IMG/VR virus record: IMGVR_UViG_3300037070_002455 | Coordinates: 1 to 21,066 of that record | DNA length: 21,066 bases | Direction: 5' to 3' (one strand) | Source: a virus | Shown here: positions 1-16,630 of the stretch, piece after piece | Layout: each line of letters starts with the position of its first letter | Numbering within the stretch: position 1 is the first letter of the stretch | Made by a program: the position numbers and the translations under genes | Notes under the pieces: generated by a model | Told to the model about the DNA's origin: nothing | The model's input: the letters and a program-made list of their open reading frames with translations, nothing else | Databases searched by the model: none

Positions 1-22
1 AGGATGGTGGTTTTCATGGGAG

Positions 23-316
23 TTAAGAGCAACAACCACAGCACGGAGCATCCTCACAACGCCCCCGACTGTTCTGAGTCAGGACAGCGCCCGATGACAG
101 GCGAATGACAGACAAACCGAGCCTTGCCAGCCTGCGATCATTGGCCAGCGTGCCCGGTTCAAGCCCGGCCCGTTCATCCTCATCGAATTGCCCAGGTTCA
201 CGGCAACCGGAGTGTTCAGCGTGGCCGCGCCCGTAGAAGTCGATTGACTCCCCGGGATTGATTTGCTCCCCACAGGCGCGACATACGCCGGGGAACTTTG
301 CGATCATGGATTTCAT
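23..316 (-). CDS. Small cysteine-rich zinc-binding-like protein, unknown role
   Basis: This 97-residue protein is not a family I can name. Near the N-terminus it has C12-x2-C15 followed by H35-x2-C38, spaced like a compact zinc finger or zinc ribbon (CRACG, then HSGC). A second cysteine cluster closes the protein (C87, C92, C93, C95, C96). The middle is charged and probably helical. The ATG at 316 is preferred because AAAGG lies 8 bases upstream, inside the shared leader motif ATGAAAGGCACC; an internal ATG at 307 is the alternative. It is the last complete gene of a three-gene leftward set, each member carrying the same leader. Zinc-binding is inferred from cysteine spacing only. A role in host takeover or regulation is plausible for a small early-type gene next to the packaging module, but nothing in the sequence shows it. 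Confidence 0.6.
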   Translation of the reverse strand: MKSMIAKFPGVCRACGEQINPGESIDFYGRGHAEHSGCREPGQFDEDERAGLEPGTLANDRRLARLGLSVIRLSSGAVLTQNSRGRCEDAPCCGCCS

Positions 317-320
317 TCTA

Positions 321-374
321 GGTGCCTTTCATTTTGTGGGCTGGATTGCCCGATCTACCGCCCCATTGGAGCGG
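321..374 (-). promoter_or_regulatory. Structured leader, copy A, upstream of the 23-316 gene
   Basis: Read on the minus strand, hairpin I is CCGCTCC-AAT-GGGGCGG (374 to 358, 7 bp with one G-U). Hairpin II is GGGC-AATCCA-GCCC (351 to 338, 4 bp with a 6-base loop). Five bases further on comes ATGAAAGGCACC (332 to 321), whose AAAGG can serve as the ribosome-binding site. The motif's own ATG would encode only MKGT before a TAG stop. The same arrangement recurs at 931-988. Confidence 0.55.
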
Positions 375-387
375 CAGAGCGGGGAAG

Positions 388-930
388 TCAGGCGGGATCA
401 ACCGTGAAACCAGTTTTGACTTCATAAACCGGATACGGGGCTTTCCCGTCGTCAAACCAGTCATGGCCTAGGCAGTAGGTTTTAGGGCCGTCTGGACATG
501 GATTGCCGAGATACCCTGCACCGGGCGCACAAGGTGAACAGAACTGAGCGTGTGTGTAGTACGGGGACGACAAGATCCACAAATCATTGCCATCCCGCTC
601 CGTCTTGACGTGTAAGCCAGTCGCATCCCGCAATTCGTGCGGGCCACTCTCCCCGTTGCTCGAGTACGAGTCCCCGATGTAATCCTCAACCGCCTCGAAA
701 GCCTCGAGTACGGCCGTTTGGCTCAGGTAATCGCGCAATGCCGATTCGAGCCGTTGCCTGATTTCCTCCTTGAACGCGAGATAACCGATGTCCTCCCCGC
801 GCTCGTAAATCTCTTGCACGGCATCACCGTTGCATTCGCCTTGCGGGATCACCCCAAAACGTATGCCATCGTCGCCAACATTGGATTTGCCAAGTCCGTA
901 GTCGATACCAGCGTATTCAGTAGGTTTCAT
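388..930 (-). CDS. Conserved-looking phage hypothetical protein with CxxC/CxxH cluster
   Basis: This is a 180-residue protein of unknown function. The N-terminal half is acidic and helical. The C-terminal third holds a probable metal site: YTHAQFCSPCAPGAG (C131, C134), then C145, C153 and H156 in TYCLGHDWF, ending with a Pro/Tyr-rich APYPVYEV stretch. I associate this C-terminal signature with hypothetical proteins of environmental phages; that is recollection, not a search result. The chosen start is the ATG at 930, directly after ATGAAAGGCACC, with AAAGG 4 bases upstream. An in-frame ATG at 942 would add MKGT. A TTG-initiated extension to 1002 would read straight through the leader hairpins and is unlikely. 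It sits between two other small leftward genes and is probably co-transcribed with them. Confidence 0.7.
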   Translation of the reverse strand: MKPTEYAGIDYGLGKSNVGDDGIRFGVIPQGECNGDAVQEIYERGEDIGYLAFKEEIRQRLESALRDYLSQTAVLEAFEAVEDYIGDSYSSNGESGPHELRDATGLHVKTERDGNDLWILSSPYYTHAQFCSPCAPGAGYLGNPCPDGPKTYCLGHDWFDDGKAPYPVYEVKTGFTVDPA

Positions 931-988
931 GGTGCCTTTCATTATTGGAGCTTGATTGCTCCATTCCGCCCCCACAACGTAGGAGCGG
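931..988 (-). promoter_or_regulatory. Structured leader, copy B, upstream of the 388-930 gene
   Basis: On the minus strand, hairpin I is CCGCTCCTAC-GTT-GTGGGGGCGG (988 to 966, 10 bp with two G-U pairs). Hairpin II is TGGAGC-AATCAA-GCTCCA (963 to 946, 6 bp). ATGAAAGGCACC follows at 942-931 and abuts the ATG at 930. Compared with copy A, the arms of hairpin I are almost identical. The arms of hairpin II differ in sequence but still pair around a similar AATC[AC]A loop. The 5' GCTCC of hairpin I could also pair with GGAGC of hairpin II, so two alternative folds are possible. Confidence 0.55.
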
Positions 989-998
989 AGTGGAACTG

Positions 999-1217
999 TC
1001 AAACCCTCGCTTTCACGGCAAGCTGTTTGTGGGCTGCGAACGGCCTACTATCGTACTGCCAGTAACCCTGTGACTGGCAGTAGCAGTAGTCGCGCGCATC
1101 TTGTTCGGCCAAGAATCCCAGGATTGGTCCGGGATTGCCACTGTCCCAGGCGATTGCCCTGCATTTCCGGTTCTTTTGCGCTGCTGCTACGGTGGGGAAT
1201 GCTGTTTCGTTAGTCAT
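999..1217 (-). CDS. Small hypothetical protein, 72 aa
   Basis: This 72-residue protein has no recognised family. It opens with a polar, Ala-rich segment, contains C19, and has an aromatic and cysteine-rich core (DYCYCQSQGYWQY, C45 and C47) with a basic C-terminus. The ATG at 1217 is supported by the leader motif ATGAAAGGCACC, which ends one base before it. A second, degenerate copy (CGAAAGGCACTA) lies about 25 bases further upstream. It is the first gene of the leftward set and faces the divergent intergenic region, so its promoter is expected between 1257 and 1476. The gene is credible because it shares its leader with two neighbours and runs in the same direction. Its function is unknown. 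Confidence 0.5.
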   Translation of the reverse strand: MTNETAFPTVAAAQKNRKCRAIAWDSGNPGPILGFLAEQDARDYCYCQSQGYWQYDSRPFAAHKQLAVKARV

Positions 1218-1218
1218 T

Positions 1219-1256
1219 GGTGCCTTTCATGTTTTGAAGCATAATAGTGCCTTTCG
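1219..1256 (-). promoter_or_regulatory. Leader copy C with two GAAAGGCAC motifs
   Basis: On the minus strand, ATGAAAGGCACC occupies 1230-1219 immediately before the start codon at 1217. CCACGAAAGGCACTA lies upstream at 1256-1242. Unlike copies A and B, I see no convincing pair of hairpins here. The element is probably the ribosome-binding region of the first leftward gene, and the double motif is unusual. Confidence 0.45.
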
Positions 1257-1476
1257 TGGACATCAGACTAGCACAACGCGCCTTGTGTTCAATCAAATAA
1301 TACAATCATCCACACTCCAAACACCTAAACACCTACACGGCAACGCCATACACACGAAAGAAATTCGTTGAACAAGCCCAGGTGTCACCCCATACAACCT
1401 CACCCAAACACAAGAAAAACCGCTCCAGGGCAACTGGGAGCTTGCAAATGGCTGTCCTGAGTGGCAGTCACACCCC
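1257..1476. other. Divergent noncoding interval, A+C-rich on the + strand
   Basis: No credible gene lies here. It separates leftward from rightward transcription, so promoters for both directions are expected. Composition is strongly skewed: I count 38 A, 36 C, 15 T and 11 G in 1301-1400. Visible elements are a tandem AAACACCT pair (1319-1334) and a short inverted repeat ACGAA-N5-TTCGT (1354-1368). Two weak promoter-like matches are present: TATTAT on the minus strand (1302-1297) without a good -35, and TTGAAC (1368) with TACAAC (1393) on the plus strand at a long 19-base spacing. None is strong enough to call alone. Confidence 0.4.
1319..1334 (+). repeat. Tandem octamer AAACACCT x2
   Basis: Two perfect adjacent copies (1319-1326 and 1327-1334) lie in the divergent noncoding interval. 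Such a pair could be a regulator-binding iteron or chance in an A+C-rich stretch. Confidence 0.35.
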
Positions 1477-2367
1477 ATGATGGCATCAGCAAGTTCAAGA
1501 GTCCGAAAGCCACTAAAACATGATCGCAGGCGCAATACAGATGCAGCAATCGTACGGGCAATCGAAGCAGACTTGTCCGTATCAAGAACTTACAAGGACA
1601 TCCTCCGAGATTACAACGTCTCAAGTGACACCGTAATCAGGATCAAGCGCCAGATGGTTGATCAGCCCGGAACCTGGATTGATTTGGTGGCTGGACGCAT
1701 CTCGGGTTGCATCACCCTGGCCGTTGAACGGCTCAAACAAGCTCTAATCCGCAACAAGGTGCCAGCCAACCAATTGCATATCGTAATCGGAGTCCTGCTA
1801 GACAAGCACGCGCAGCTTACCAGCCTGACAACCCCGCAAGGGCCGGTACGCACGGACGGCACCATTCTGGAGCGTGTCAGGATAGAGTTTGAGCAGCTAA
1901 GGCAAGTCATCGCCACCCCAGCCCCGCAAAAAGCCTTGGCCATAGAAACCTCTGCCCAACCCGTACCAGAGCAGTCCTGTACCAAAGCCACTCGCACCAT
2001 GGAAGACGGGAGGGATCGTAAGGGAGATCTGCCCAGTTGCGTCAAGCCAATTCCGCAAGAACCTGCGCAGATTCCTGCCCGGGCTTGCCCAGGCCGGGGG
2101 GAGGGGGGCCAGGACGCGGGGCGGGGCGCGGGCGTCAATCCTTGTCCTTCTCTCGAAATTACTAACAAAAAGGGGCAATCCGCTGTTGAGGATGCCGTTG
2201 TGCGGGACGGTACATCTGCTGCCGTGACAACCAGTGTGAAGCGCAAACCACGCAAGAACGCCAGGAAATCAGCCACGTCTGTGTCACTGTTCCCGGCTCA
2301 GGAAGGGGCTTCTGTGGTGGTGAAGCCGGTTCAAGGAACGGAACAGGGGCCTTTAGGCGGATCCTGA
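1477..2367 (+). CDS. HTH protein, candidate terminase small subunit
   Basis: This 296-residue protein begins with a basic tail, followed by a helix-turn-helix at about residues 37-60 (YKDILRDYNVSSDTVIRIKR). Next comes a helical stretch VERLKQALIRNKVPANQL and then VIGVLLDKHAQL (to about residue 114). That combination of HTH and 'GxxxDK' helix resembles small-terminase-like DNA-recognition proteins of environmental phages. Its place as the first rightward gene, four genes before the terminase large subunit, supports packaging-site recognition. The C-terminal half is low-complexity and Pro/Gly-rich, ending in a basic KRKPRKNARK patch. Two ATGs are adjacent (1477 and 1480) with no clear Shine-Dalgarno. 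An alternative is a transcription regulator. The HTH is fairly secure; the terminase role is inference. Confidence 0.55.
   Translation: MMASASSRVRKPLKHDRRRNTDAAIVRAIEADLSVSRTYKDILRDYNVSSDTVIRIKRQMVDQPGTWIDLVAGRISGCITLAVERLKQALIRNKVPANQLHIVIGVLLDKHAQLTSLTTPQGPVRTDGTILERVRIEFEQLRQVIATPAPQKALAIETSAQPVPEQSCTKATRTMEDGRDRKGDLPSCVKPIPQEPAQIPARACPGRGEGGQDAGRGAGVNPCPSLEITNKKGQSAVEDAVVRDGTSAAVTTSVKRKPRKNARKSATSVSLFPAQEGASVVVKPVQGTEQGPLGGS
2096..2132 (+). other. G-run cluster with G-quadruplex potential
   Basis: Five G-tracts lie on the coding strand: 2096-2101 (6 G), 2103-2108 (6), 2118-2121 (4), 2123-2126 (4) and 2130-2132 (3), separated by loops of 1, 9, 1 and 3 bases. They are inside the low-complexity half of the HTH gene, encoding a Gly/Arg-rich linker. 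Confidence 0.4.
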
Positions 2368-2394
2368 GATGGGGCAGTTCACCGCAGAAAGGGG

Positions 2395-2424
2395 TTGACA
2401 TGGACGGTGGGGCCGCCGTATTTA
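2395..2424 (+). promoter_or_regulatory. Weak sigma70-like promoter candidate before the zinc-finger/HTH gene
   Basis: A perfect -35 hexamer TTGACA (2395-2400) is followed after 18 bases by TATTTA (2419-2424), a poor -10. Transcription would then start within a few bases of the ATG at 2434, giving a nearly leaderless message. It lies in the 66-base gap after the HTH gene. Confidence 0.25.
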
Positions 2425-2433
2425 CTGGGCTTT

Positions 2434-2691
2434 ATGAGCCGACAACAGGACTACCAGCGTCGCCACGCCTTGGCTGGGCTGTGCCGATTGTGCTCAAAAC
2501 CGATAGATCCAGAGTCAACCCTTCTGTGCGGTGAACATTTGGACAGAAAACGCCGGAAGGCTGGGTTCAGGAACTTGAAGCCAAAGGCTCGGTGGGCTGG
2601 TGTGGACTGGGCTAAGAGCAATCACGCCATCTCGAAGGAGCTTGGGGTGTGTTGGACGACAGTGCGGTATCAGAGAAGGAAACGGGTATGA
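2434..2691 (+). CDS. Zinc-finger plus helix-turn-helix small protein
   Basis: This 85-residue protein has two parts. Residues 1-45 carry MSRQQDYQRRHALAGLCRLC with C17, C20, C32 and H35, a CxxC-x11-CxxH arrangement typical of a small zinc finger. Residues 58-82 (KSNHAISKELGVCWTTVRYQ) look like a helix-turn-helix, followed by a basic RRKRV tail. Together they suggest a sequence-specific DNA-binding regulator. The ATG at 2434 was chosen over an upstream TTG at 2395 because the paralogous gene at 3058 begins with the matching residues MNRQQ. Its stop overlaps the next start (ATGA), implying translational coupling. A role as regulator or packaging accessory is inferred, and no partner is visible. 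Confidence 0.6.
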   Translation: MSRQQDYQRRHALAGLCRLCSKPIDPESTLLCGEHLDRKRRKAGFRNLKPKARWAGVDWAKSNHAISKELGVCWTTVRYQRRKRV

Positions 2692-3050
2692 CTGAGCATG
2701 TTGTTGAGACCCGGATTGTGTGGTTGAGACCTAAGGACAATTACGAGTATTTGAGGGAGGGGATTTGGCATTGTGGCCAGCGGGTAAGGTTTCCGTTGAA
2801 GCAATGTGATCCTGCCAAGTGGACTGACGGCGGGCCATTATCGCATTTGGTGGCGTACGCCGTTGTGGATATTCGGGTTCCCCGGGATGAATGCGGTTAT
2901 TTTCTGAGAAGATACTGGTGGGTGAAAGGGTATGACCGATTTGAAGGTCATGGTAACTGCCGTGGGTTTTGGTATCGTACGGGTGCTCCATGCGAAGCAG
3001 TGGACGTGATGACGATCATTCCTGGAGTTCGTTCCGAGAGTTACACTTGA
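2688..3050 (+). CDS. Hypothetical protein, 120 aa, aromatic and cysteine-rich
   Basis: This 120-residue protein has no recognised family. It is rich in Trp, Tyr and Arg and holds scattered cysteines (HCGQR, KQCDP, DECGYF, GNCRGFWY, GAPCEAV). The predicted pattern is mostly beta strands. The ATG at 2688 overlaps the preceding TGA and has AGAAGG about 10 bases upstream, which makes it a better start than the GTG at 2649. Its wording is G/T-rich on the coding strand (many TTG, GTG and GTT codons). It contains an Asp codon GAC followed by C, a combination I did not meet in the structural block, so it may have a different recent history. Function unknown. Confidence 0.5.
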   Translation: MTEHVVETRIVWLRPKDNYEYLREGIWHCGQRVRFPLKQCDPAKWTDGGPLSHLVAYAVVDIRVPRDECGYFLRRYWWVKGYDRFEGHGNCRGFWYRTGAPCEAVDVMTIIPGVRSESYT

Positions 3051-3057
3051 GATTCGG

Positions 3058-3195
3058 ATGAACCGTCAGCAGCGATACCAGCAGAAACATTCGTTGGCTG
3101 GGTTATGTAGATCCTGTGTGGGAAATCGTCGCCGTGCTGGCTGGGATTGTGTTGTCGGCGATTGTCTGGTTGGTTGGATGTCGATGAACTTATGA
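3058..3195 (+). CDS. Short zinc-finger-like paralogue of the 2434-2691 gene, 45 aa
   Basis: This 45-residue reading frame begins MNRQQRYQQKHSLAGLCRSC. It matches the first 20 residues of the protein at 2434-2691 at most positions, including C17 and C20. After that the two diverge: cysteines follow at 31 and 36, but the His ligand and the helix-turn-helix are absent. Its stop overlaps the next start (ATGA at 3192-3195), which supports it being translated. It is either a compact stand-alone zinc finger or a shortened duplicate losing function. It starts seven bases after the upstream gene's stop, and I see no strong ribosome-binding site. It was recognised by eye through the paralogy. Confidence 0.5.
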   Translation: MNRQQRYQQKHSLAGLCRSCVGNRRRAGWDCVVGDCLVGWMSMNL

Positions 3196-3500
3196 AGACA
3201 AATGAAGGATACTTTCCTCCAAGCCCACAATCTATTCCTATGGGTTTGGCACCATATCCGAAGAATTCCGGTGTCACAAACGAACGGAAAGAGATCGAAT
3301 CGTGGAGGGCTGTTGCGGAGCAGCGCGAGAAGGAAATACTTTCTATTTTGAGCACCCATGTTCACGTCAGGGACGTGATTCCATTGCTTCAAGCAACCTG
3401 CGTGGTGGAATGCAGCAGTCCTTGGAGGATTCCAAGGCAGGATTTCATCGACAAGCACTCGGACAAGATTGCCGCAGAGTTTCCAAACACGTTGCGTTAA
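3192..3500 (+). CDS. Hypothetical protein upstream of the terminase, 102 aa
   Basis: This 102-residue protein has no recognised family. The first 28 residues are Pro-rich and probably flexible (PPSPQSIPMGLAPYP). A charged helix follows (RKEIESWRAVAEQREKEIL), then a hydrophobic segment VIPLLQATCVV and a basic C-terminus. The ATG at 3192 overlaps the stop of the preceding small gene. This gene ends exactly one base before the terminase large-subunit ATG at 3501, so the two are probably co-translated. The position directly before TerL would also suit a terminase small subunit, but no DNA-binding motif is visible. Confidence 0.45.
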   Translation: MKTNEGYFPPSPQSIPMGLAPYPKNSGVTNERKEIESWRAVAEQREKEILSILSTHVHVRDVIPLLQATCVVECSSPWRIPRQDFIDKHSDKIAAEFPNTLR

Positions 3501-5423
3501 ATGCAACCCCTGATCCCACCGGCCCATCCTTGTCTGCCGAATCTTTCGCAGGAAGAGGTTCTTGGGCTGGTTAATAGGCCCGGTGGCGAAGAGTTGTACG
3601 CGAACTGGCTGGAGACACGGAACAAGACTTTGAGAGAGGCGGAAGAGGATCCACTGTACAGCGGGTTCGAGTTGGATTGTTGGCAGTTGAACGATCAGAA
3701 CCTTTCAGACGATGACGTGGAGATCCTGGCGATCTTCGGGTGGAACCGGGGAGCAGCAAAGACTTGGTGGGCCGTGAAACGACTCTGTGAAGCCGCTCAT
3801 GCCTATCCCGGGTTCGAGGGGCTATTACTCGCCGAGACGGATCAATCCTCCATCGCCATTCATCAGAAGATGGTTTGGGCGTTCTTTGATCGGTACATCA
3901 ACAAGCTTCAAGGAAAGAGAACCCAGAAGTACAAGGTAAACTTCACGGAAGCCAATGGGTTCTCGCAAGGGGTACTCCTGATCCCATCTGGAGCTTGTTG
4001 GATTAAAGGCAATCTTGTCCGGTACACCGGAAATTCGACGATCAAGTTCAAGAGTTACAAAAGTGATCCTGGACAGTTCGAGGGCTGCGAGTTTGGAGCA
4101 AGACGGGACGTGATCGGCACAACCCAGGCAGGGAATCCAATCTTGGATCTCAAAGAACGTCCTGACGGCACGAAGATCCAGAACCTTGCGGTAGTCGCTG
4201 ACGAAGGGCTTCCATTGAGTTGGTTCCGAATGCTGGCGAGACGTGTCCGGTACAGGAACGCCAAACTGGCGTGGCCCTACACCCCGATCAAAGGCATGAT
4301 CCCATCGATCAAGACTGTCGTGGGTTCAGCCCGGTACTTGAAAACGTCTCCTGTGAACGTCAATGGTGAGTTCGGAGATTTCAAAGCGCAGTTGAAAGGA
4401 CTTCCTCTTGGCCACATGCCAGTCCTAGCGGATTGCGAATGGCCCCGTACAAGAGCGGTGTGGCATCATTGGAGCCGACAAAGTTTCAATGGTTACTCCG
4501 AGATCGTCCGAAAGGATTGTGAAGGGAGGATTCAAGAGTACGTGGAAAGGTTCGCGTTCGGATTCGCCCGTGACTCCGTAGCCAGACAGTTCGGGAACTT
4601 CGGCGCCCAGAACATCGTAAGGGCCGATCAACTTCCTGAGGATGGCACGAACTATCAGGTGAACGATCCGGCCGATCAAAGGCCCTGGTTCTCGATCTGG
4701 GTACGAGTCACAGAAGGGTACGGGGGCCGGCCGGTTTACTGGATCTACCGGGACTGGCCGGACATGCAACGGTATGGAGAATGGGCCGTGGAAACCTCAA
4801 GAGAAACGTCTGAAGATCAGAAGAAAGGTTGGGATGGCGATCAGGGTCCCGCGCAGGCGAACCTCAACCTTGGCGTGATCGGGTACAAAAGAGAATGGAA
4901 TGACTTGGAGAAAGTGCTTGGCGGGGGAGTCCCGGAACGCGATCCTTACCGCCTCAGGATCCAGAAGAAACTTCCAACAGGTTCGTTGGCAAGAGAGGAC
5001 ATCTTTGAACGCTTGGCGGATTCACGGGCGTTCGCCCGCCCACAACTCGAAGAACAAGGCCAGATCAGCCCATTGGATCTGTTCGCGGAAGAACACAAGG
5101 ACGACGACAACACCGTTCTGGAGCCAATCGACTTCATTCCCGCAACTGGAGGACGGATTGATCTCGAACTCATCAAGGAACTTCTGGACTACAAAGTGGA
5201 CAAAGGATCCGGGAAGATCGTCCAGCCTCCAAGGCTCTACGTGAGTGAAGATTGCCGGCAAGTGATCTGGGCACTTGAAAATTACACTGGTAGATCCGGG
5301 GAAACGGGTGCATCAAAGGACGTTATCGACACTTTGAGATACATGGCTGGCGGCGATCTTGTCCACGTCACAGACAGGACGTTCAAGATCCGCTCTGCCT
5401 CTGAACAAGACGACAACGAATGA
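3501..5423 (+). CDS. terL: Terminase large subunit (packaging ATPase and nuclease)
   Basis: TerL is the motor that pumps DNA into the procapsid and cuts the concatemer. This 640-residue protein has both expected domains. The N-terminal ATPase shows a deviant Walker A at about residues 80-88 (GWNRGAAKT, with Ala where Gly normally precedes Lys). The FKSYKSDPGQFEG segment (about 183-195) is typical of TerL, and Walker B is VVADEG (231-236, Asp234 and Glu235). The C-terminal RNase H-like nuclease includes VYWIYRDWPD (about 412-421), an acidic ADSRA site near residue 507, and a late KDVIDTLRY (606-613) with the last catalytic Asp. The family usually runs 500-650 residues, so it is full length. 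Its stop overlaps the portal start. The overall pattern resembles TerLs of uncultured environmental phages. Confidence 0.93.
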   Translation: MQPLIPPAHPCLPNLSQEEVLGLVNRPGGEELYANWLETRNKTLREAEEDPLYSGFELDCWQLNDQNLSDDDVEILAIFGWNRGAAKTWWAVKRLCEAAHAYPGFEGLLLAETDQSSIAIHQKMVWAFFDRYINKLQGKRTQKYKVNFTEANGFSQGVLLIPSGACWIKGNLVRYTGNSTIKFKSYKSDPGQFEGCEFGARRDVIGTTQAGNPILDLKERPDGTKIQNLAVVADEGLPLSWFRMLARRVRYRNAKLAWPYTPIKGMIPSIKTVVGSARYLKTSPVNVNGEFGDFKAQLKGLPLGHMPVLADCEWPRTRAVWHHWSRQSFNGYSEIVRKDCEGRIQEYVERFAFGFARDSVARQFGNFGAQNIVRADQLPEDGTNYQVNDPADQRPWFSIWVRVTEGYGGRPVYWIYRDWPDMQRYGEWAVETSRETSEDQKKGWDGDQGPAQANLNLGVIGYKREWNDLEKVLGGGVPERDPYRLRIQKKLPTGSLAREDIFERLADSRAFARPQLEEQGQISPLDLFAEEHKDDDNTVLEPIDFIPATGGRIDLELIKELLDYKVDKGSGKIVQPPRLYVSEDCRQVIWALENYTGRSGETGASKDVIDTLRYMAGGDLVHVTDRTFKIRSASEQDDNE

Positions 5424-7720
5424 ACACTTTAGGAGATCCGTTTGATGACGGCCTTTGGTTGGTGTCGGACACCCCACCCGTGGGGAGACTCATTGACGAG
5501 TTCAAGAAAGCTGGCGGGCTCTCGTCCAACTCAGTCAGGAAACGGCGCAACGACAGGATCCGTTACTGCAAATGGGAAGGACGAGCGCAGGACTACAAGA
5601 AACATCGTGAACTTCTCTCCAGAGATCCTGTCCCGTACGAAGACGCCTGGGACGGACGGATCTACTTGGCTGACGGGATCCTGATGGACATCGGGGACAT
5701 GCTTGAATCGGCGTTCGCCCGGGCACAGATCAAGATGAAACCAACCGGAGCCGAGGACACCGCGCAAGCGGCAAATTCCGAGAAGGTTCTGGGGAAGTAC
5801 ATTGAACGAGACAGAACGATCCTAAATGACGAAGCCGGGTTGATGTGGCAGTTCGGTGGTGGGTACGGGGCTTCAATGTGGCAGGTGTATTGGGATCGCC
5901 AGATCGCAATGAAGATGGTTCCGATCTCAATGGAGCGGCTTGAGGAAGCTGCCCAAATGGCCCAACAAGCTCTTTTGGGTGCGTACTCGGAAGGGATCGA
6001 GATCCCCATTGAAGTCGCCCAGCAAGCCCAGACAGTGGCGTACTTCCCACAGCAGATCATGGACAAGGAGCGGGAGAGCGAAGCAGTTGAAGTTCTTCAA
6101 CAGATCGCCCAAACTGTCGCGGCTCAACTGTTCCAACCCGAACGAGAAGCGTACGGGGATTCGTGGCTCCTGAACTACAAGATGTCCGCGAAGATGGCTC
6201 GGAAGTGCATCCGAAGCCTTCGGGAGAACGGTTCAGGATCGTTCCCGGCACCGTTTCTTTCCAAGAACGCTCCCTGTGTGGTGGCCCGGGAGGTTGGGTA
6301 CGATTACTTTTCACCGCAGGACATGACGGATCCAGAGACTTCACCGTGGCACATGGTTCGGGAATGGCTGACTCCAGCGCAGATCATGGAGAGAAAAGCC
6401 GTTGACGGATGGGACGCGGACTGGTGCGAGAAAGTCATCAAGACAGTCGGGCAATCAACCGAGTGGGGGCCCGACATCGCAATGGTGGACGACTCGGAAG
6501 AGGACGATGACGCCGAGACATTTAATCCTTCGACTCGTACCGGCCACACTTACCTGTGCGAAGTCATCCACGCGTACGTCCGTTACACGACGGACGAAGG
6601 GATCCCGCAAATCTGGTGTACCGTGATGAGCCCACACACCATGAAAACGGAGCGAGGAGACGATCTGTGGGGCAAACATTACCCCATGACGGACTCTTCT
6701 TCGTACGGGTTTTTCCCGTTCCGTTGGCAACGCCGGCGCCGAAACTTTCACGACAACATCGGGATCCCTGAACTGGTTGGTTCCGATCAGCAACTCATCA
6801 AGCGAACCCTGGATCAGTTGACGGATCGGGCCGACATGGAACTGAACCCTCCGTGGATGGTGGCGAACCGGATGTCCATGAAGTACAAAGCCGGCCCGGG
6901 CGCCCAGATCCCACGTAGGCGAGCGGGTGACTTGGAACCAGCCCCGCCACCCCCAGGTTCTCCTGCTCTTGGGTTTGAACTGATCAAGGAAGCCCGGTAC
7001 AGGATCGACAATTACTTCGGGTTTATGACGGAGAATGTTTTGCCGGCGAAATGGCAGAACAAACTGCAGGCTGTTGTCGGGCGGTATCTCGGCTCCGCTC
7101 AGGCGATGTTCAAGTATTACTGGCGGCTCATTCAGGAGAACGCCGACGAGGAAGAACTTGCCAGGATCGCTGGTGGCGCGACGAACTTCCCGACTTCACC
7201 AGAGGACATCTCCGGTGATTTCGATGTTGCGATGGCATTCGACGTGAAGGATCTGGACATGGAATTCGTGTTCAAGAAACTCGACGCCGTAGCCAAGATG
7301 GCGGTTCCGTTGGACAGGGCTGGGGTGATTGATCTAGCCGCGATGGTGAAACTGATCATCACGGCGATTGATCCGACGTACGCGCAAGCTCTCGTGAAAG
7401 ACGAACAGGGAGCCGCGCAAGCCGTTTATCGGGACGTTGACACGCAAGTTCTCAGGATGTACGCCGGCAACGAAGCGGAGTTCACCGAGAACGATCCAAC
7501 CGCGAACATGAAGCTCCAGTTCCTCCAGCAAGTCATTCAGGGGAACCCCCTGTACCAACAGGCGCTTGGGATTCAGGACGGGCAACAGCCAAATCCGTTG
7601 TTCGTGGAACGAGTCCAGAAGTACCAGAAGAACCTCCAGCAATCAGTTCAGCAGGAACAGAACAAGATGACTGGACGGTTGGGGGTTCAACCTGATAACC
7701 AAATGCAGGCAGCACTATGA
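5420..7720 (+). CDS. Portal protein
   Basis: The portal forms the dodecameric ring at one capsid vertex through which DNA is packaged and ejected. At 766 residues it is close to the large P22-type portals. The diagnostic part is GIPELVGSDQQLIKRTLDQL (about 448-467) followed by DMELNPPWM, matching the conserved crown/stem region of phage portals. There is a Gln/Ala-rich helical insertion at about residues 170-235, an acidic loop (DDSEEDDDAE, about 357-366), a short poly-Pro stretch (about 507-513) and a Gln-rich C-terminus suited to a coiled barrel. It starts at an ATGA overlap with TerL and ends at an ATGA overlap with the next gene. There is no clear Shine-Dalgarno, so coupling is likely. 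Position and length make the call firm. Confidence 0.88.
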   Translation: MNTLGDPFDDGLWLVSDTPPVGRLIDEFKKAGGLSSNSVRKRRNDRIRYCKWEGRAQDYKKHRELLSRDPVPYEDAWDGRIYLADGILMDIGDMLESAFARAQIKMKPTGAEDTAQAANSEKVLGKYIERDRTILNDEAGLMWQFGGGYGASMWQVYWDRQIAMKMVPISMERLEEAAQMAQQALLGAYSEGIEIPIEVAQQAQTVAYFPQQIMDKERESEAVEVLQQIAQTVAAQLFQPEREAYGDSWLLNYKMSAKMARKCIRSLRENGSGSFPAPFLSKNAPCVVAREVGYDYFSPQDMTDPETSPWHMVREWLTPAQIMERKAVDGWDADWCEKVIKTVGQSTEWGPDIAMVDDSEEDDDAETFNPSTRTGHTYLCEVIHAYVRYTTDEGIPQIWCTVMSPHTMKTERGDDLWGKHYPMTDSSSYGFFPFRWQRRRRNFHDNIGIPELVGSDQQLIKRTLDQLTDRADMELNPPWMVANRMSMKYKAGPGAQIPRRRAGDLEPAPPPPGSPALGFELIKEARYRIDNYFGFMTENVLPAKWQNKLQAVVGRYLGSAQAMFKYYWRLIQENADEEELARIAGGATNFPTSPEDISGDFDVAMAFDVKDLDMEFVFKKLDAVAKMAVPLDRAGVIDLAAMVKLIITAIDPTYAQALVKDEQGAAQAVYRDVDTQVLRMYAGNEAEFTENDPTANMKLQFLQQVIQGNPLYQQALGIQDGQQPNPLFVERVQKYQKNLQQSVQQEQNKMTGRLGVQPDNQMQAAL

Positions 7721-8007
7721 AAATCACACAATCCCCAACCCGTAAGCCGTGGTGGCACGGCAAAACATTCGAGTGTCAGGTATGCGGGTGGGCCGCTGAG
7801 TTCGAGGAAGGCGATCAGACGAAACCAGGGTTCAGCGGTGGCCCAAACGCCGCAACCCTCATGTGCCGATCCTGTTTCGGGACGATCACGATCTCCAACT
7901 CGCCATCACCTGAAGTTGTTCCAGCGTCTCCACCGGCCACGTTGCCGGATCCTCCCCCAACGGTTGCTCCTCCATCTGGATTCTTCGGAAAGAAGAAAGG
8001 CAAGTGA
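7717..8007 (+). CDS. Small zinc-ribbon-like protein
   Basis: This 96-residue protein has two cysteine pairs in the first half, C20-x2-C23 (CQVCGW) and C50-x2-C53 (CRSCFG), a rubredoxin- or zinc-ribbon-like arrangement that probably binds one zinc ion. The second half is a disordered Pro/Ser/Thr-rich tail ending in a basic GKKKGK. Start and stop overlap the portal gene (ATGA) and the next gene (GTGA), placing it firmly in the packaging operon. Small zinc ribbons in this position occur in other phages without a settled role. Candidate roles are an accessory to packaging or to portal and scaffold assembly, but nothing specific is shown. Confidence 0.6.
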   Translation: MKITQSPTRKPWWHGKTFECQVCGWAAEFEEGDQTKPGFSGGPNAATLMCRSCFGTITISNSPSPEVVPASPPATLPDPPPTVAPPSGFFGKKKGK

Positions 8008-8321
8008 GGACTCTTCACCAACTCACCAACGGCCGAACGGAGGAACAAGCCCGCAAAGAGATCGCGCAATGCGGGGACTCTCTTGGTGGGCTCAAAGAGA
8101 ACGAGGCCGTGTGGCAGGCGATCAAGTCACGGTTCGAGTTGGCGATTGCGGAGGGCAACGACTGGGTGACGCATCCTGATACGAAGAATCGGGAATGGGC
8201 GGCTGGTTGTGTTCGGGGCTTGAACGATCTGTGGCAGGAACTATCGGATCTTCGGGATGGTTCGTGGAAACGCTGGCCGGAGTTCAAAGCCGAGAAGAAG
8301 GTTCAGGAGGAAGAGGATTAG
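8004..8321 (+). CDS. Small helical protein downstream of the portal
   Basis: This 105-residue protein is predicted to be almost wholly alpha-helical and charged. The segment WQAIKSRFELAIAEGNDWV is followed by REWAAGCVRGLNDLWQELSD and a Lys/Glu-rich end. It starts with GTG overlapping the previous stop. AAAGG lies 3 bases before the start and may act as a short-spaced ribosome-binding site. I recognise the general look of short helical proteins found between portal and scaffold genes but no named family. The following 189 bases are noncoding, so this is the last gene of the packaging block. Confidence 0.55.
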   Translation: MRTLHQLTNGRTEEQARKEIAQCGDSLGGLKENEAVWQAIKSRFELAIAEGNDWVTHPDTKNREWAAGCVRGLNDLWQELSDLRDGSWKRWPEFKAEKKVQEEED

Positions 8322-8373
8322 TCTTCCTCTCAGGGCGCCCGAAAGTTCTTTTCCAGAGAGCCGTGTCAACAAC

Positions 8374-8402
8374 TCCAATTTTACGTTAACGATAAAGTTG
8401 GA
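8374..8402 (+). terminator. Stem-loop between packaging and capsid blocks, possible terminator or processing site
   Basis: TCCAATTTTA (8374-8383) pairs with TAAAGTTGGA (8393-8402) over 10 bp, with one G-U and a 9-base loop containing the palindrome CGTTAACG. The sequence after it (TTCTGTATCG) has only a weak T-tract, so a classical intrinsic terminator is uncertain. It lies in the 189-base gap 8322-8510. Otherwise that gap holds only an isolated TTGACA at 8425 with no good -10. Confidence 0.4.
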
Positions 8403-8510
8403 TTCTGTATCGGTAACGCCGCTATTGACAGGATCCAGGAAGGAGCGTAGCAACCCCAAGAACCTTTCTGCCTTTGGTTCATCGGTAAAGGCTGCCTACT
8501 TGCGATAAGC

Positions 8511-9683
8511 ATGAGAAAGAACAAACCAGCGCCAAATCCTGAAGCCCCCTCGGTGGCTTCGGAGGCTCCGGCCGCGCCTACCGTGCAGCGGACTGTTGTT
8601 GTAACCAACGACGCCGCTCAAACGCTTTCACGCGATGACGCTTTGCGTCAGTTGGGTGAGGGCTTACTGGCTCCTGAGCAATCAGGGGATAACCCTCCGG
8701 CCGAAGTTGATGACGAAGCGCAAGTGCCCGTCGAAGACGAAGGCCAAGAGACACCGGAAACTAATGAACTGGCTGAGTCCGACGCTGCCCCGGAGCCGGA
8801 CGCAGAAGTGGACGAAGAGGATCTTGAAGAACTGTCGGAATTGTCCGAGGAAGAACTCACCGCGCACGGCCAAGAAAAAGGCTGGCCCGCTTCCTACACC
8901 AAGAGGGTAAAGAAGTTCACCCGCAAGCTCAGGGAAGCTCAGGCGAAAGCCGAAGGCGCTGCCCAGATGCGGGAGGAACGCGAAGCCCTCAAGGCCAAGG
9001 TTGCGGAACTGGAAGGCACCAAGCCTCAGGAGACGGCCCAGGAAGTGGAAGTCAACGACGGACAGGTTCAACAGTTCGGCAAGCAGTTGGGCGAGATCGA
9101 CAAGCAAGTGGATGGAATCGACAAGTTGCTGATTTGGGCCAAGCGCAATCCCGAAGGGGGAACGCTCCGGGACAAAGACGGCAAGGAAGTCGAAGTGGAC
9201 GCCGATTACGTTATCGAGATGTCCGACAAACTGGAGCTACGCAAACGGCAACTGGACAGGGAAGCCTCACGGTTGATTGCCAAACGCGAAGCCCGGTTGA
9301 GCCAAGTCGCCGTTGAAGAACAGGAACAAGTCAAGACGGTGGCCAAGAAGGCTCTTGAGTTGTATCCCTGGCTCAACGATCCGAAGTCGGCTGAGTGGAA
9401 GAAGGCGGATCAATTCGTCAAAGAAAACCCGGACATCCGGCTTTTGAGGAATTGGCCCCTGATCGTTGGGCAGGTAATCGCCGCAAACGGTACACCAAAG
9501 CCCAACGGTAACGGTAACGGCCATCCACCATCCCGTCCTCCTGCTCGTCCAGCAGCGGCTCCGATGCCGCAGTCCAACTCGCGCAAGTCCAACGACAGCG
9601 CCGCACTCAGTCAGGCCATGAAATCCGGTAACAGACAGGACGCGGAAGCGGCCATCTTGTCTCTAGTGGAGGGGCGCAGATAA
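8511..9683 (+). CDS. Scaffold-like capsid assembly protein
   Basis: This 390-residue protein lies immediately upstream of the major capsid gene, the usual place for a scaffolding protein that templates the procapsid and is then released. It has the expected features. The N-terminus is disordered and Pro/Ala-rich, and residues about 60-115 are very acidic (Glu/Asp/Pro). A long charged helix with coiled-coil character spans about 130-175 and another about 225-290. A Gly/Asn/Pro-rich linker (about 330-355) precedes a helical C-terminus that could contact the capsid protein. No protease motif is visible. The ATG at 8511 has no obvious Shine-Dalgarno. The role rests on composition and position, not on a conserved domain. 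Confidence 0.75.
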   Translation: MRKNKPAPNPEAPSVASEAPAAPTVQRTVVVTNDAAQTLSRDDALRQLGEGLLAPEQSGDNPPAEVDDEAQVPVEDEGQETPETNELAESDAAPEPDAEVDEEDLEELSELSEEELTAHGQEKGWPASYTKRVKKFTRKLREAQAKAEGAAQMREEREALKAKVAELEGTKPQETAQEVEVNDGQVQQFGKQLGEIDKQVDGIDKLLIWAKRNPEGGTLRDKDGKEVEVDADYVIEMSDKLELRKRQLDREASRLIAKREARLSQVAVEEQEQVKTVAKKALELYPWLNDPKSAEWKKADQFVKENPDIRLLRNWPLIVGQVIAANGTPKPNGNGNGHPPSRPPARPAAAPMPQSNSRKSNDSAALSQAMKSGNRQDAEAAILSLVEGRR

Positions 9684-9705
9684 CCCGGCGCTTGCACCAA
9701 AACTC

Positions 9706-10713
9706 ATGTTAATCGAACGAAATCAAGTCGGTAAACGGGAGGCGTTGGCGGATCTCATCAGCCGCGTTGACGCCAAGAGCAAGCCCTTGCTCGCCATGAT
9801 CCCCAAGGGACGGGATCGGAACAATATGTTGTTCTCGTGGCAAATGGACAACTTCGAGGACGACGCGGATCTCGCCGTGGAAGATGGTGAAGATGCGTCC
9901 TCGTTCAGCAACGCCAGCCCGGATCGGTTCCTGGCCAGCACCTACATGACGAAGTTCCGAGACACCGCGATGGTGTCCGATCTCGCCGAGAACGTCTCGG
10001 ACGTGGCCGGGCTTTCCAAGGGTGAGGAAGCGGAATCGATTATGAAGAAGCTGGAAAAGATGGGCCGCTCCATCGAAGCCGCTCTGTGCGGGGATCAGGA
10101 GCATCAAGCCGGTGCTGCCGGTGTCCCGTACAAGACTCGCGGACTCGGGGTTTGGATCCAGTCCGGTGCCCAAGCGTTGCTGCCGGTGGATGCGAACTAT
10201 CGCACGCCATCGACGAGCATCAGCACCACCGCCACCGCGAACGTCACCACAACGATTGTTGACGATCTCCTGGAAAGCTCTTACCAGCAAACCGGGAAAC
10301 GCCATCACTTCATCGGGCTTGTCGGCACCACCCTCAAGCGCCAGTTCACGACGTTCACGGCCCGGGTGTCCGGGGCGGCCAACACGTTCAGCCAGATCCG
10401 AGCCTACAACACGAACTTCAACGGGAAGATCGACAACGTGGTGGACATGTACAACGGCGACTTCGGGATCATCGATCTCCACCCGACGCTGTTCAACGCC
10501 ACCGCCCGGTTTGGCGGTTCGGCGACGGTACAGCCGCTTCGCGGGTATTTCCTGATCATGGAATACCTGGAACTCACCCACAAACGGAAACCTCGCGTCA
10601 AGGAACTGGAAGATCGCGGCGGCGGCCCCCGTTTCCTCGTTGACTCGATCTTCGGCGATTGCGTCAAGAACCCGCGCCCGTTCATCAAGATTGCGTCCAC
10701 TTCGGCGACGTAA
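9706..10713 (+). CDS. Major capsid protein, SU10/DUF5309-like
   Basis: This is the main shell protein, expected to have the HK97 fold. It has 335 residues. The N-terminus NQVGKREALADLISRVDAKS followed by KPLLAMIPKG matches the opening of the SU10-type major capsid family (DUF5309), in which VGKRE-DL-DLI is followed by a PFL-I-KG segment and an F-W-x-D strand (here LFSWQMDNF). The middle is Thr/Asn/Ala-rich beta sequence. The C-terminal region (NGKIDNVVDMYNGDFGIIDL, later FLIMEYLELTHKRKPRVKEL) is the typical closing beta domain. The acidic scaffold gene precedes it and a putative decoration gene follows. No Shine-Dalgarno precedes the ATG. Its Asp codons show the GATC-favouring pattern reported in the findings. 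Confidence 0.88.
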   Translation: MLIERNQVGKREALADLISRVDAKSKPLLAMIPKGRDRNNMLFSWQMDNFEDDADLAVEDGEDASSFSNASPDRFLASTYMTKFRDTAMVSDLAENVSDVAGLSKGEEAESIMKKLEKMGRSIEAALCGDQEHQAGAAGVPYKTRGLGVWIQSGAQALLPVDANYRTPSTSISTTATANVTTTIVDDLLESSYQQTGKRHHFIGLVGTTLKRQFTTFTARVSGAANTFSQIRAYNTNFNGKIDNVVDMYNGDFGIIDLHPTLFNATARFGGSATVQPLRGYFLIMEYLELTHKRKPRVKELEDRGGGPRFLVDSIFGDCVKNPRPFIKIASTSAT

Positions 10714-10745
10714 ACCAGCAACCAACACATCAACTGAACTGACAA

Positions 10746-11291
10746 ATGAAACCTACTCTGTTCAAAAAGCTCGCGTCAGCCGTTATGTTGCTGGCGATCC
10801 TCATCCTGAACGTCTCTCCGGCTCTTGCCCTGGACGTTCAGGTTCTCCCGGAAAACACCGTCGCAAAGTTCGGGTACACGCACGTCATCAAGATCAAGTA
10901 CACGGACGTGACGAACTCGTTGGCCAACTGCCAGTACAGGTTCGTCCCTGGATCCGGCACGTTCCTGGCCAACACGTTCATTGATCGGGCCGGGCTGTTG
11001 CTCACGACTCCGTTCTACGTGGCGGAAGCCAACGCTGGCTCGAACTCGGTGTTCCTGTCGGCGGGTATCACGGGGGCAACCAACAACGTGCTCTCCGGGT
11101 TCATGGTTGGAAGCAACCGAACAACCACGGTGTTCACGACAAACCTGATCGCGCCAGTCCTGTTCAGTGGCGCAACGAACTCGCTCACCGTGAGCCTTTC
11201 GTTCAGCAACGACGCCATGCCGGCGCTTCTCCTGTCCGGGGAAGTATCGGTGTTTGTTAGGGCGTTGAATCTCCCTAACCTCAAGTTCTAG
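10746..11291 (+). CDS. Signal-peptide-bearing beta-rich protein, possible decoration protein
   Basis: This 181-residue protein directly follows the capsid gene, where decoration or cement proteins usually lie. The mature part (from about residue 29) is Thr/Ser/Asn/Val-rich and reads as a beta sandwich. The N-terminus is unexpected: a textbook Sec signal with a basic MKPTLFKK, a hydrophobic LASAVMLLAILILNV and a cleavable SPALA ending at A28. A virion protein assembled in the cytoplasm would not normally need export. Either it is a secreted or envelope-targeted protein hitchhiking in the operon, or a structural protein that keeps a hydrophobic N-terminus. There is no Shine-Dalgarno. A terminator candidate follows 10 bases after the stop. 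Confidence 0.6.
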   Translation: MKPTLFKKLASAVMLLAILILNVSPALALDVQVLPENTVAKFGYTHVIKIKYTDVTNSLANCQYRFVPGSGTFLANTFIDRAGLLLTTPFYVAEANAGSNSVFLSAGITGATNNVLSGFMVGSNRTTTVFTTNLIAPVLFSGATNSLTVSLSFSNDAMPALLLSGEVSVFVRALNLPNLKF

Positions 11292-11301
11292 TCCCTCGGC
11301 A

Positions 11302-11345
11302 GGTGGCGGTGTGCTGTGCAGAACACACCGCCACCCCTCTTTGTT
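11302..11345 (+). terminator. Strong hairpin terminator candidate after the capsid/decoration genes
   Basis: A perfect 12-bp GC-rich stem, GGTGGCGGTGTG (11302-11313) with CACACCGCCACC (11324-11335), has a 10-base loop and is followed by CCTCTTTGTT. It lies 10 bases after the stop at 11291. It would partly end capsid-level transcription before the neck and tail genes, a common arrangement in phages. Confidence 0.7.
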
Positions 11346-11735
11346 ATGGGAATGCCAATTAATCTGGCTGCGCTGCGGCCGGACACTCTGGCCGCTCTGG
11401 AATTGTTGGCCAGAAAGAAACTCCAACTGGAAGCCATCCGGGCTCAACAACAGCAGGAACGTGTGGCAAAAGAGTTTGGTGAAGCCAACGCTGTTGACGG
11501 GATTGGGGAGCTTCAGATGCAGGTTCACGCGCAGGCGTACCACGAATGGAACGCCAAACAGCCCGGGTGCTGGAGTGATCCGGCGTTTCGACGTTGGTAC
11601 AGGAAGAAACAAGCCCCGGAGACAGACGTGAAATGCGGCGGAACAAAGGTGCAGGTTGGATGGACACCTTCGGCACCACAAACAATCGAGATTTTCGGAT
11701 GCCAGGAAAACAAGCGGTTCACCAAAAAGTACTAG
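11346..11735 (+). CDS. Hypothetical neck-region protein, 129 aa
   Basis: This 129-residue protein begins with a helical segment (LAALRPDTLAALELLARKKL) and a Gln-rich coil. A motif I associate with conserved phage proteins of this region follows: QMQVHAQAYHEWNAKQPGCW (about 57-76) and SDPAFRRWYRKK. The C-terminus is short and beta-like with single cysteines. The start is uncertain. The ATG at 11346 is used here and another lies at 11352; neither has a Shine-Dalgarno, and both begin within 20 bases of the terminator hairpin. A GTG at 11316 falls inside the hairpin loop and is unlikely. The gene abuts the adaptor gene with no gap. Function unknown, perhaps a neck component. Confidence 0.6.
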   Translation: MGMPINLAALRPDTLAALELLARKKLQLEAIRAQQQQERVAKEFGEANAVDGIGELQMQVHAQAYHEWNAKQPGCWSDPAFRRWYRKKQAPETDVKCGGTKVQVGWTPSAPQTIEIFGCQENKRFTKKY

Positions 11736-12827
11736 ATGGTTACCGTAAGCGCAGAGGACATTTTGCGGGGAATGAAGGGACTGATCGACGGTTCCGATCA
11801 GGCCACTTCCGCGACTCAATTCGATGTTGCCCCCGATGCTTCGGAGTTCCCCCGTTACAGACAGGCCCTTGATTTGGCTTTGGGGCATTGCTGGCGTTCC
11901 GAATGGTGGCCGGAACTCATGCTTGGGGAACTCCGTTACTTTCGCAACAACTGGGCTTCAGGTTCCACCTACAACAAAACCGATGAAGTCTATGACGCCG
12001 CCACACAAGCCTACTTCCAAGCCCTCCGAAACAGCGTCACTGGCTCAGGACAATCCCCAACCACTTCAACCGGAGCAGAGCGTTCCGATTACTGGGCTCG
12101 GTGCCGGGCTTCCTACGGTGGGGCCAACTGGGTTACGGCTACGAGCTACACCGTCGGGCAGACTGTTTTTTACCCGCCAACCAATCGGTACTATCAATGT
12201 CACACCGCTCACACTTCATCTGGGACGCTGGTTCCGCCAGCGACGGGTGGCAATGAACGGTGGGGAATCCTGACGCCGTTCAAGCGCAACATCACCAAGG
12301 ATCAAAGTTGGGAAACCAACGAGATCGGGGACGTTCATGCGATCACGGATCAGGATCCAGAAGTGTTCCCGCGCTGGAAGAGACTCGATTGGGGCAACGG
12401 AAACGGCGACTTGGGGATCGTGGTTGTCGAAGAAGCCATCAGGGCTTGGGTGACATTCCGGCGCCCGCGTCCCCGCCTCAAGGGAGCCGTGTACGACGAG
12501 GACGAAGCGTACGCGACAGGCGATCAGATTTACTTTCCGGCAGAGGCTTCCGACGAAACACCTGGGAATTTCTACAACTGCTTGGCCACCACGGTTGCGG
12601 GGGAATCTCCCCTGACAGACGCGGATTTGTGGGCAGTCGTGGAGATCCCCCAAACCTTCTACGCGGCTCTTGTCCACATGGGCGTGTCTAAGTTGTATCA
12701 GCCGGACGGACAACAGGAGAAGATGGCGATCCCGGCTGGGATGGCCGAAGAAGATTTGGGACTGGAAGCCGATGTTATTTACCGTCAACAAGGCCAGTCG
12801 CCGCCTGTCCCAATGCGTACCTACTAA
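11736..12827 (+). CDS. Head-tail adaptor-like protein with two chitin-binding-like beta modules
   Basis: This 363-residue protein sits where the adaptor (gp4/gp11-like tail tubular A type) joins portal to tail. The N-terminal helices (about 1-75) include LDLALGHCWRSEWWPELM, typical of such adaptors, and the C-terminus ends in helices (FYAALVHMGVSKLYQPDGQQ). Between them are two segments with the pattern of carbohydrate-binding module family 5/12 folds. The first is WVTATSYTVGQTVFYPPTNR followed by YYQCHTAHTSSG and an ERW (about residues 131-175). The second is AYATGDQIYF, FYNCLATTVAGESP and DLW (about 254-305). These Y-x-x-G-x-x-V plus terminal Trp modules are compact beta domains that may brace the neck. 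It starts directly after the previous TAG and overlaps the next gene (TAATG). Confidence 0.7.
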   Translation: MVTVSAEDILRGMKGLIDGSDQATSATQFDVAPDASEFPRYRQALDLALGHCWRSEWWPELMLGELRYFRNNWASGSTYNKTDEVYDAATQAYFQALRNSVTGSGQSPTTSTGAERSDYWARCRASYGGANWVTATSYTVGQTVFYPPTNRYYQCHTAHTSSGTLVPPATGGNERWGILTPFKRNITKDQSWETNEIGDVHAITDQDPEVFPRWKRLDWGNGNGDLGIVVVEEAIRAWVTFRRPRPRLKGAVYDEDEAYATGDQIYFPAEASDETPGNFYNCLATTVAGESPLTDADLWAVVEIPQTFYAALVHMGVSKLYQPDGQQEKMAIPAGMAEEDLGLEADVIYRQQGQSPPVPMRTY

Positions 12828-13255
12828 TGAAAACTCGACATTATCTCGCCACCGCTCTTTGTTTGCTTTGCCTGTTCATCTGGCAGATCCCGGCCGTTGT
12901 GCCGCCGTCCAGCGGAAACGCCAGCTACCTGAAAACCACTCCCGTTGCCACGAACCTTTGGGCCGCAACACTCCGGGAAGCTCGGGTGTACTCGATCTCG
13001 GCCTGCAACACGTCAGGCTCAGACGTGTGGTTGCATGTGTTCAATACCAACAGCGCCACTGTCCCGAACAACTCCACCCCTGGGTTCGCTCCTGTTAAAA
13101 TCTTGAGCGGAGCCAACGGCGGATATGATTTCGGGGAGAAAGGTTGCCCGTTCACAAGAGGGGTTGTTGCGGGGACTTCATCGACTCCAACGACGTTCAC
13201 GAATGGTTCGGCGGTGTTCGTGATCTCGGTGGTGTACGACGGCATTTTTGAATAA
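12827..13255 (+). CDS. Small beta-rich virion-operon protein with N-terminal signal or membrane segment
   Basis: This 142-residue protein opens with MKTRHYLATALCLLCLF followed by IWQIPAVV, a basic start and a hydrophobic stretch to about residue 25. It looks like a Sec signal or membrane anchor; no good lipobox is present, because Leu precedes the cysteines. The rest is a beta-rich domain (ARVYSISACNTSGSDVWLHV, then GGYDFGEKGCPF) of the kind seen in small phage tail or neck accessory proteins. Both ends overlap neighbours by one base (TAATG), so it belongs to the adaptor-nozzle transcript. It is the second protein in this operon with an export-type N-terminus, and its role is unknown. It could be a tail accessory or a host-surface protein. 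Confidence 0.6.
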   Translation: MKTRHYLATALCLLCLFIWQIPAVVPPSSGNASYLKTTPVATNLWAATLREARVYSISACNTSGSDVWLHVFNTNSATVPNNSTPGFAPVKILSGANGGYDFGEKGCPFTRGVVAGTSSTPTTFTNGSAVFVISVVYDGIFE

Positions 13256-15570: not shown

Positions 15571-15571
15571 C

Positions 15572-15832: not shown

Positions 15833-15836
15833 AACT

Positions 15837-16627: not shown

Positions 16628-16630
16628 CGT

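Follow-up and report, generated by a model that had tools for sequence, protein, structure and literature searches.

A repeated stop-codon hairpin at gene junctions of two phages without detectable common proteins

Two gene junctions of a tailed phage carry the same RNA element, a long hairpin that opens with one gene's stop codon and is followed by the Shine-Dalgarno site of the next gene. Nine further copies lie at gene junctions of a second phage, with which the first has no detectable proteins in common, and the pairing covaries across the 11 copies. The element is an RNA family for which no prior description was found in the open-access sources consulted or in Rfam 15, and the carriers found are these two phages. 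Our preferred reading, held tentatively, is that of a cis-acting intercistronic RNA on polycistronic mRNA, which would most likely insulate two cistrons from each other.

The element in the window

The window, that is the whole stretch of DNA analysed, is the entire IMG/VR record IMGVR_UViG_3300037070_002455 (21,066 bases), a fragment of a tailed phage whose major capsid protein is of the SU10 type. Another contig from this phage, L004, lengthens it leftward by 2.6 kb; the left-end bases of the window (1-5) conflict with L004, probably through an assembly-end error. Three small genes of the window are read leftward:

999-1217, minus strand: gene C, 72 aa, function unassigned; its own UGA falls inside element B
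388-930, minus strand: gene B, 180 aa, function unassigned; relatives with 40-42% identity in two phage contigs
23-316, minus strand: gene A, 97 aa, phrog_5664, a widespread phage protein, function unassigned

No relative of gene C was found beyond the window phage, and the element was not found beside the relatives of gene A or gene B in other phages. More than 500 relatives of gene A turned up in the stretches examined, and its tail, GRCEDAPCCGC, is conserved. The closest relative (72% identity) has a different, strongly structured leader (L030 3860-4000), in which an 11-bp stem closes two hairpins directly ahead of a GAAAG start signal. Small past duplications in the leftward arm are indicated by a coding stretch (CAAATCGGCGACTATTCGTGT...) imperfectly repeated ahead of another gene (L004 about 1240-1300 and 1830-1875) and by a partial paralogue, at L004 1-228, of the gene at L004 1284-1604. 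Elsewhere, a large protein encoded downstream of a putative terminase (window 5420-7720, likely the portal) has a single distant relative among GenBank phages, in Phage C75C1 (24% identity), which suggests that the lineage of the window phage is poorly sampled. A host search via an open frame in the L004 extension gave no match.

The initial annotation had described a duplicated leader ahead of genes A and B, and the sequences and pairings that it named were located on the minus strand, at 314-390 and 928-1001. Between the upstream stop codon and the ribosome-binding site, copy A folds with -27.1 kcal/mol (z -3.9; 0.14% of 5000 dinucleotide shuffles equally stable) and copy B with -35.3 kcal/mol (z -7.2; 0 of 5000). 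Folded with their flanks, each forms a single long hairpin with the UGA stop codon at its start; this anchoring at the stop codon of the upstream gene is a feature that the initial annotation had missed. The hairpin is topped by a 3-nt loop on an 11-bp distal stem; a one-by-one mismatch separates this from a middle stem, below which an internal loop leads to the lower stem with the UGA. Its parts are as follows:

949-1002, minus strand: element B, whole hairpin anchored at the stop codon, between genes C and B; 43.4 bits with model R3 (B is in the R3 training set); fold -38.5 kcal/mol
990-1002, minus strand: 5' basal strand of B, UUGACAGUUCCAC; gene C UGA stop codon at 999-1001
965-989, minus strand: distal stem of B, 11 bp, 979-989 with 965-975; loop 976-978
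952-964, minus strand: 3' basal strand of B, AUGGAGCAAUCAA; 77-92% identity to the nine relatives
946-963, minus strand: 'hairpin II' of copy B, an alternative fold about 10 kcal/mol worse; absent from the relatives
339-391, minus strand: element A, whole hairpin anchored at the stop codon, between genes B and A; 24.7 bits with R3 (A is in the training set); fold -29.4 kcal/mol; aligned with B, the weaker member
379-391, minus strand: 5' basal strand of A, CUGACUUCCCCGC; gene B UGA stop codon at 388-390
354-378, minus strand: distal stem of A, 11 bp, 368-378 with 354-364; loop 365-367
342-353, minus strand: 3' basal strand of A, UCGGGCAAUCCA; 46-54% identity to the relatives
338-351, minus strand: 'hairpin II' of copy A, an alternative fold about 3 kcal/mol worse

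The leader had been taken for two successive hairpins, and on this point the initial annotation has to be revised. The 5' arm of the proposed 'hairpin II' is the 3' basal strand of the long hairpin, which is more stable than the two-hairpin fold by about 3 kcal/mol in A and about 10 kcal/mol in B; furthermore, 'hairpin II' can form in none of the nine relatives (longest stem 3-4 pairs), and a failure to pair in homologues was the ground on which the initial annotation itself would have given up this part. 'Hairpin I' is real, but in both copies it is a stem of 11 bp around a 3-nt loop and not, as supposed for B, of 10 bp. Its supposedly near-identical arms, CCGCTCC and GGGGCGG, are conserved in place in one of the two possible A-B alignments; in the end-anchored one the common 7-mers are offset by three bases. 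With the stop codon and ATGAAAGGCACC as anchors and one internal 1-nt gap, the long hairpin shows 4 double-sided changes in 14 pairs and 96% pairing, which drops to 41-59% once the partner strand is displaced by one to three columns; a shuffle test on two sequences is weak by itself (41 of 500). For 'hairpin II' the same alignment gives 1 double-sided change in 6 pairs, with two pairs broken in A.

The 12-mer ATGAAAGGCACC, which had been counted as belonging to the element, has three occurrences in the window, each ahead of a leftward gene:

1219-1230, minus strand: ATGAAAGGCACC ahead of gene C; no hairpin upstream
931-942, minus strand: ATGAAAGGCACC ahead of gene B; GAAAGG at 935-940, likely Shine-Dalgarno site
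321-332, minus strand: ATGAAAGGCACC ahead of gene A; GAAAGG at 325-330, likely Shine-Dalgarno site

The leader of gene C is unstructured (z +0.7), and the presence of ATGAAAGGCACC before this hairpin-free gene makes it separable from the element. The GAAAGG within it lies 4-8 nt ahead of each start codon and matches the usual 16S 3' end; ATGAAAGGCACC is best read as a translation start signal apart from the element. GAAAGG also lies outside both folds and is mostly unpaired, contrary to the suggestion of a fold switch at the ribosome-binding site. The alternative that ATGAAAGGCACC is a mini-ORF (MKGT) was abandoned, as its frame relation to the next gene is different in all three leaders. Besides genes A, B and C, the leftward gene at L004 853-1215 carries GAAAGG, and most of the rightward (structural) genes (window 1477-17857, plus strand) lack a Shine-Dalgarno match of at least 6 bases; the two arms of the phage may use different initiation modes or times. 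An inverted pair of ATGAAAGGCACC, 26 nt apart, is found at L004 746-795, in a GC-rich 500-bp stretch without a clear gene.

Nine copies in a second phage

The initial annotation had recommended a covariance-model search for copies elsewhere, and this proved productive. Model R2 was made from A and B alone (R1, with the structure two columns off, was not used). In 628 kb of loci it gave six matches, all on one strand, the coding one, of IMGVR_UViG_3300032053_000608 (locus L028), the best with 32.4 bits (E 3.3e-5); scores at all other searched loci were 17 bits at most. The discovery owes something to luck, since L028 had been chosen only because its opposite strand has ATGAAAGGCACCATGA within a gene. 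On reading the contig we found nine copies, all with the same fold, which follow the pattern UUGAUCCCUGC(ACA or UA), a variable stem-loop, then (G/A)AUGGAG(U/C)GAUC(A/G)A. A short pattern for the family is TGATCCCTGCACA, a gap of 15-40 nt and GATGGAG. The other half of the contig has no copy. A look for more copies had been proposed by the initial annotation; those found are in another phage, and the third ATGAAAGGCACC of the window, that of gene C, came without a hairpin.

Every copy, nine of nine in L028 and two of two in the window, is placed at a gene junction, with a stop codon at or just before its start and the Shine-Dalgarno site of the following gene past its end. In L028 the stop codon is the element's own UGA in seven copies and stands 5 nt earlier in the other two. 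Most gaps with the element measure 51-81 nt, those of the window being 68 and 71 nt, whereas many other junctions of the L028 contig overlap or are shorter than 25 nt. An A-rich spacer of about 3-17 nt leads from the end of the element to the Shine-Dalgarno site, and the single strand directly past the element is 62% A, as against 24% genome-wide. The genes of this phage include a family A DNA polymerase fused to a uracil-DNA-glycosylase domain, a clamp-loader-like protein and an AAA ATPase; no protein homology was detectable between this contig and the window phage, its L004 extension included. A 520-aa radical-SAM-like protein encoded on the relative's contig (L211 7920-9482) has no match among 50,697 GenBank phage records.

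A5, the alignment of all 11 copies, was set by hand to match the fold, and its pair counts are to that extent biased towards it. Standard pairs make up 93.3% of its pair cells (74.8% after shuffling), double-sided changes affect 12 of 19 pairs (5.8 after shuffling) and the covariation score is 0.557 (0.180 after shuffling); none of 500 shuffles reaches the real values on any of these measures, and pairing falls to 35-50% when the partner is slid. A further control, added because A5 had been fitted to the fold, re-matched the arms: a distal arm pairs at 8.64 of 9 positions with the partner from its own copy and at 5.13 with arms taken from different copies, where 5000 tries gave 6.91 at most. 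Within the L028 set of nine, identity is 89% for the basal strands and 49% for the distal stems, which nonetheless still pair. The initial annotation's idea of a phage-encoded RNA family in which structure is kept as sequence changes is thereby borne out; of its cis-regulatory family, the place in gene leaders has held and the two-hairpin anatomy has not.

The two window copies do not fit the family equally well. The 3' basal strand, AUGGAGYRAUCRA, is 77-92% identical to the nine relatives in B and 46-54% in A; basal pairing is kept in both, with mismatches that differ from those of the relatives. On its sequence B is a clear member of the family, while A is a member mainly by virtue of its place, its resemblance to B and its fold, and fits the model poorly (24.7 bits) though it is in the training set.

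Other searches placed no third carrier beside these two. With the 4227 models of Rfam 15, the window gave no match at the gathering threshold, and its positions 280-1060 none at E <= 1; L028 gave only weak unrelated matches, far under threshold. R3 had no match in the remaining loci examined, and in a sample of about 1,480 genomes from four phyla, a scan run without a positive control, it gave no credible copy. Its matches in cellular genomes (L213, L214 and L234) were set aside as chance: they lie inside or antisense to coding genes and miss the conserved parts. A blastn comparison of the element consensus with phages and plasmids returned short chance matches only. Exact-pattern scans for the hairpin plus GAAAGGCACC, in viral contigs and 29 genome contigs, recovered the same phage and apparent chance GC-rich hairpins only, and the pattern GCAATCNAGCNC...GAAAGGC had 64 other matches, all without the fold. 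In the open-access sources consulted we found no description of a covarying family with the stop codon inside.

What the element might do

The layout runs from the UGA of the upstream gene through a mismatched basal helix and a distal stem of 9-11 bp to the A-rich spacer and a Shine-Dalgarno site that would be largely free. A ribosome terminating at the UGA would cover the basal helix. Counted from the U of the UGA, the foot of the distal stem is reached at 12-13 nt in nine copies and at 17 nt in the other two. Toeprints place the leading edge of a ribosome with the stop codon in its A site at about 12-13 nt from that U, and the spacing thus fits an insulator that closes upon departure of the ribosome. 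One could envision that the hairpin, closing behind the departed ribosome, would bar run-on or re-initiation and leave the next gene to be translated solely by ribosomes that initiate anew at its own site. In a synthetic E. coli operon, stable structures right past stop codons do reduce re-initiation, and they are enriched at gene gaps of at least 25 nt (PMC7518266). About 20 nt between genes, however, nearly abolishes coupling unaided (PMC10666635); the gap alone might therefore insulate, which counts against this reading.

A serious alternative, though one that we consider unlikely, is that of a site for mRNA processing or stability, in which an endonuclease of the RNase III, E or Y type, from host or phage, would cut at or beside the hairpin. 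The stem would then shield the 3' end of the upstream message and the next gene would keep an A-rich leader, giving each gene a separate mRNA level. Long imperfect helices at gene junctions, devoid of a U-tract, are what such a site might look like; the A-rich single strand past the element makes a plausible cleavage zone, and a precedent exists in the cip-cel operon, where intergenic stem-loops set cleavage and stability (PMC10311766). Such sites need no stop codon, however, and in all 11 copies a stop codon lies inside the element or at its edge.

Stability is all that insulation calls for, and the conservation of the basal sequence is a hint of some specific partner. A trans-acting protein or small RNA could recognise the basal helix with its internal loop and thereby control all genes that bear the element, the distal stem merely closing the structure. 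The contrast between the basal strands and the diverged but paired distal stems would be explained in this way, as would the occurrence of the element in phages without detectable protein homology, which a shared host factor would produce. We take this possibility seriously but regard it as distinctly unlikely: no candidate factor has emerged, the mismatches of the window copies differ although their basal pairing is kept, and the copies in one genome could be recent duplicates. The wider proposition, that of a widespread phage RNA family at stop codons whose basal helix is recognised by a common host or phage factor, so that unrelated phages would set the expression of many early genes at the junction of termination and initiation with one element, appears rather doubtful as well.

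The element might instead act as DNA, as a small palindrome that is mobile or as a recombination linker that joins gene cassettes, as has been proposed for PeSLs. It is multi-copy and intergenic, it occurs in two unrelated phages, and gene B is flanked by two copies. Such a role is nonetheless improbable, given that all 11 copies are sense-oriented, beginning at a stop codon and ending ahead of a Shine-Dalgarno site; a mobile palindrome would be expected elsewhere and in both directions, with the caveat that the surrounding genes all run one way. Considerably less probable still is a two-fold switch beside the ribosome-binding site. The 3' basal strand of A and B can in fact pair either upstream, in the long hairpin, or downstream, in 'hairpin II', but the latter is impossible in all nine relatives, has one double change against two broken pairs, and leaves the ribosome-binding site outside, as does the long hairpin. 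Lastly, the UGA at the hairpin base resembles readthrough or selenocysteine-insertion signals, but these are scarcely credible, as is an intrinsic terminator: readthrough would add 9 to 65 residues with no conserved protein and no common sequence beyond the conserved RNA, and no GC stem with a U-run was found in window 1-1600.

Relation to known systems

Among known phage repeats, the start-associated and extended start-associated sequences (SAS and ESAS) of cluster K mycobacteriophages invite comparison. They are short elements repeated ahead of many phage non-structural genes, nearly all in one orientation and adjoining the ribosome-binding site, and the ESAS is an inverted repeat with a spacer (PMC3203893, PMC11373665); the element resembles them in being repeated before phage genes. 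The authors found, however, that RNA pairing is not supported by the ESAS repeats, which contain putative SigA promoters (PMC3203893, PMC11373665); the pairing of our element covaries, and the ribosome-binding site, which the SAS includes, lies outside it. The 13-bp GGGATAGGAGCCC that the SAS places next to the start codon is absent from the window leaders, which have GAAAGGCACC instead, and a consensus scan of window 1-1600 found no sigma-70-type promoter. The PeSL cassettes of T4-type phages are likewise repeated intergenic stem-loops. As cited in PMC4503421, they combine an early promoter with a terminator-like stem-loop and are proposed to serve gene shuffling; for our element neither promoter nor terminator was found. 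The cip-cel stem-loops (PMC10311766) also lie between cistrons, and both they and the element could set cleavage or stability. They belong to a bacterial operon, however, have different loops and shown cleavage, and the stop codon is not described as part of them.

By position, the element would act like the ribosome termination structure (RTS) of Chemla et al. 2020 (PMC7518266). Both place a stable structure directly past the stop codon, in gaps of 25 nt or more, and for both insulation is proposed. The RTS is a statistical folding signal for which neither a sequence nor a common fold has been described, whereas the 11 copies described here have a single covarying fold, largely conserved basal strands and the UGA inside. 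Past stop codons, structures have so far been described as a tendency seen in genome statistics; an element that recurs, covaries and is found in two phages with no detectable proteins in common would offer a defined object for studying the separation of cistrons, and R3 can be used to scan virus collections for it. The element could perhaps also yield a compact natural insulator.
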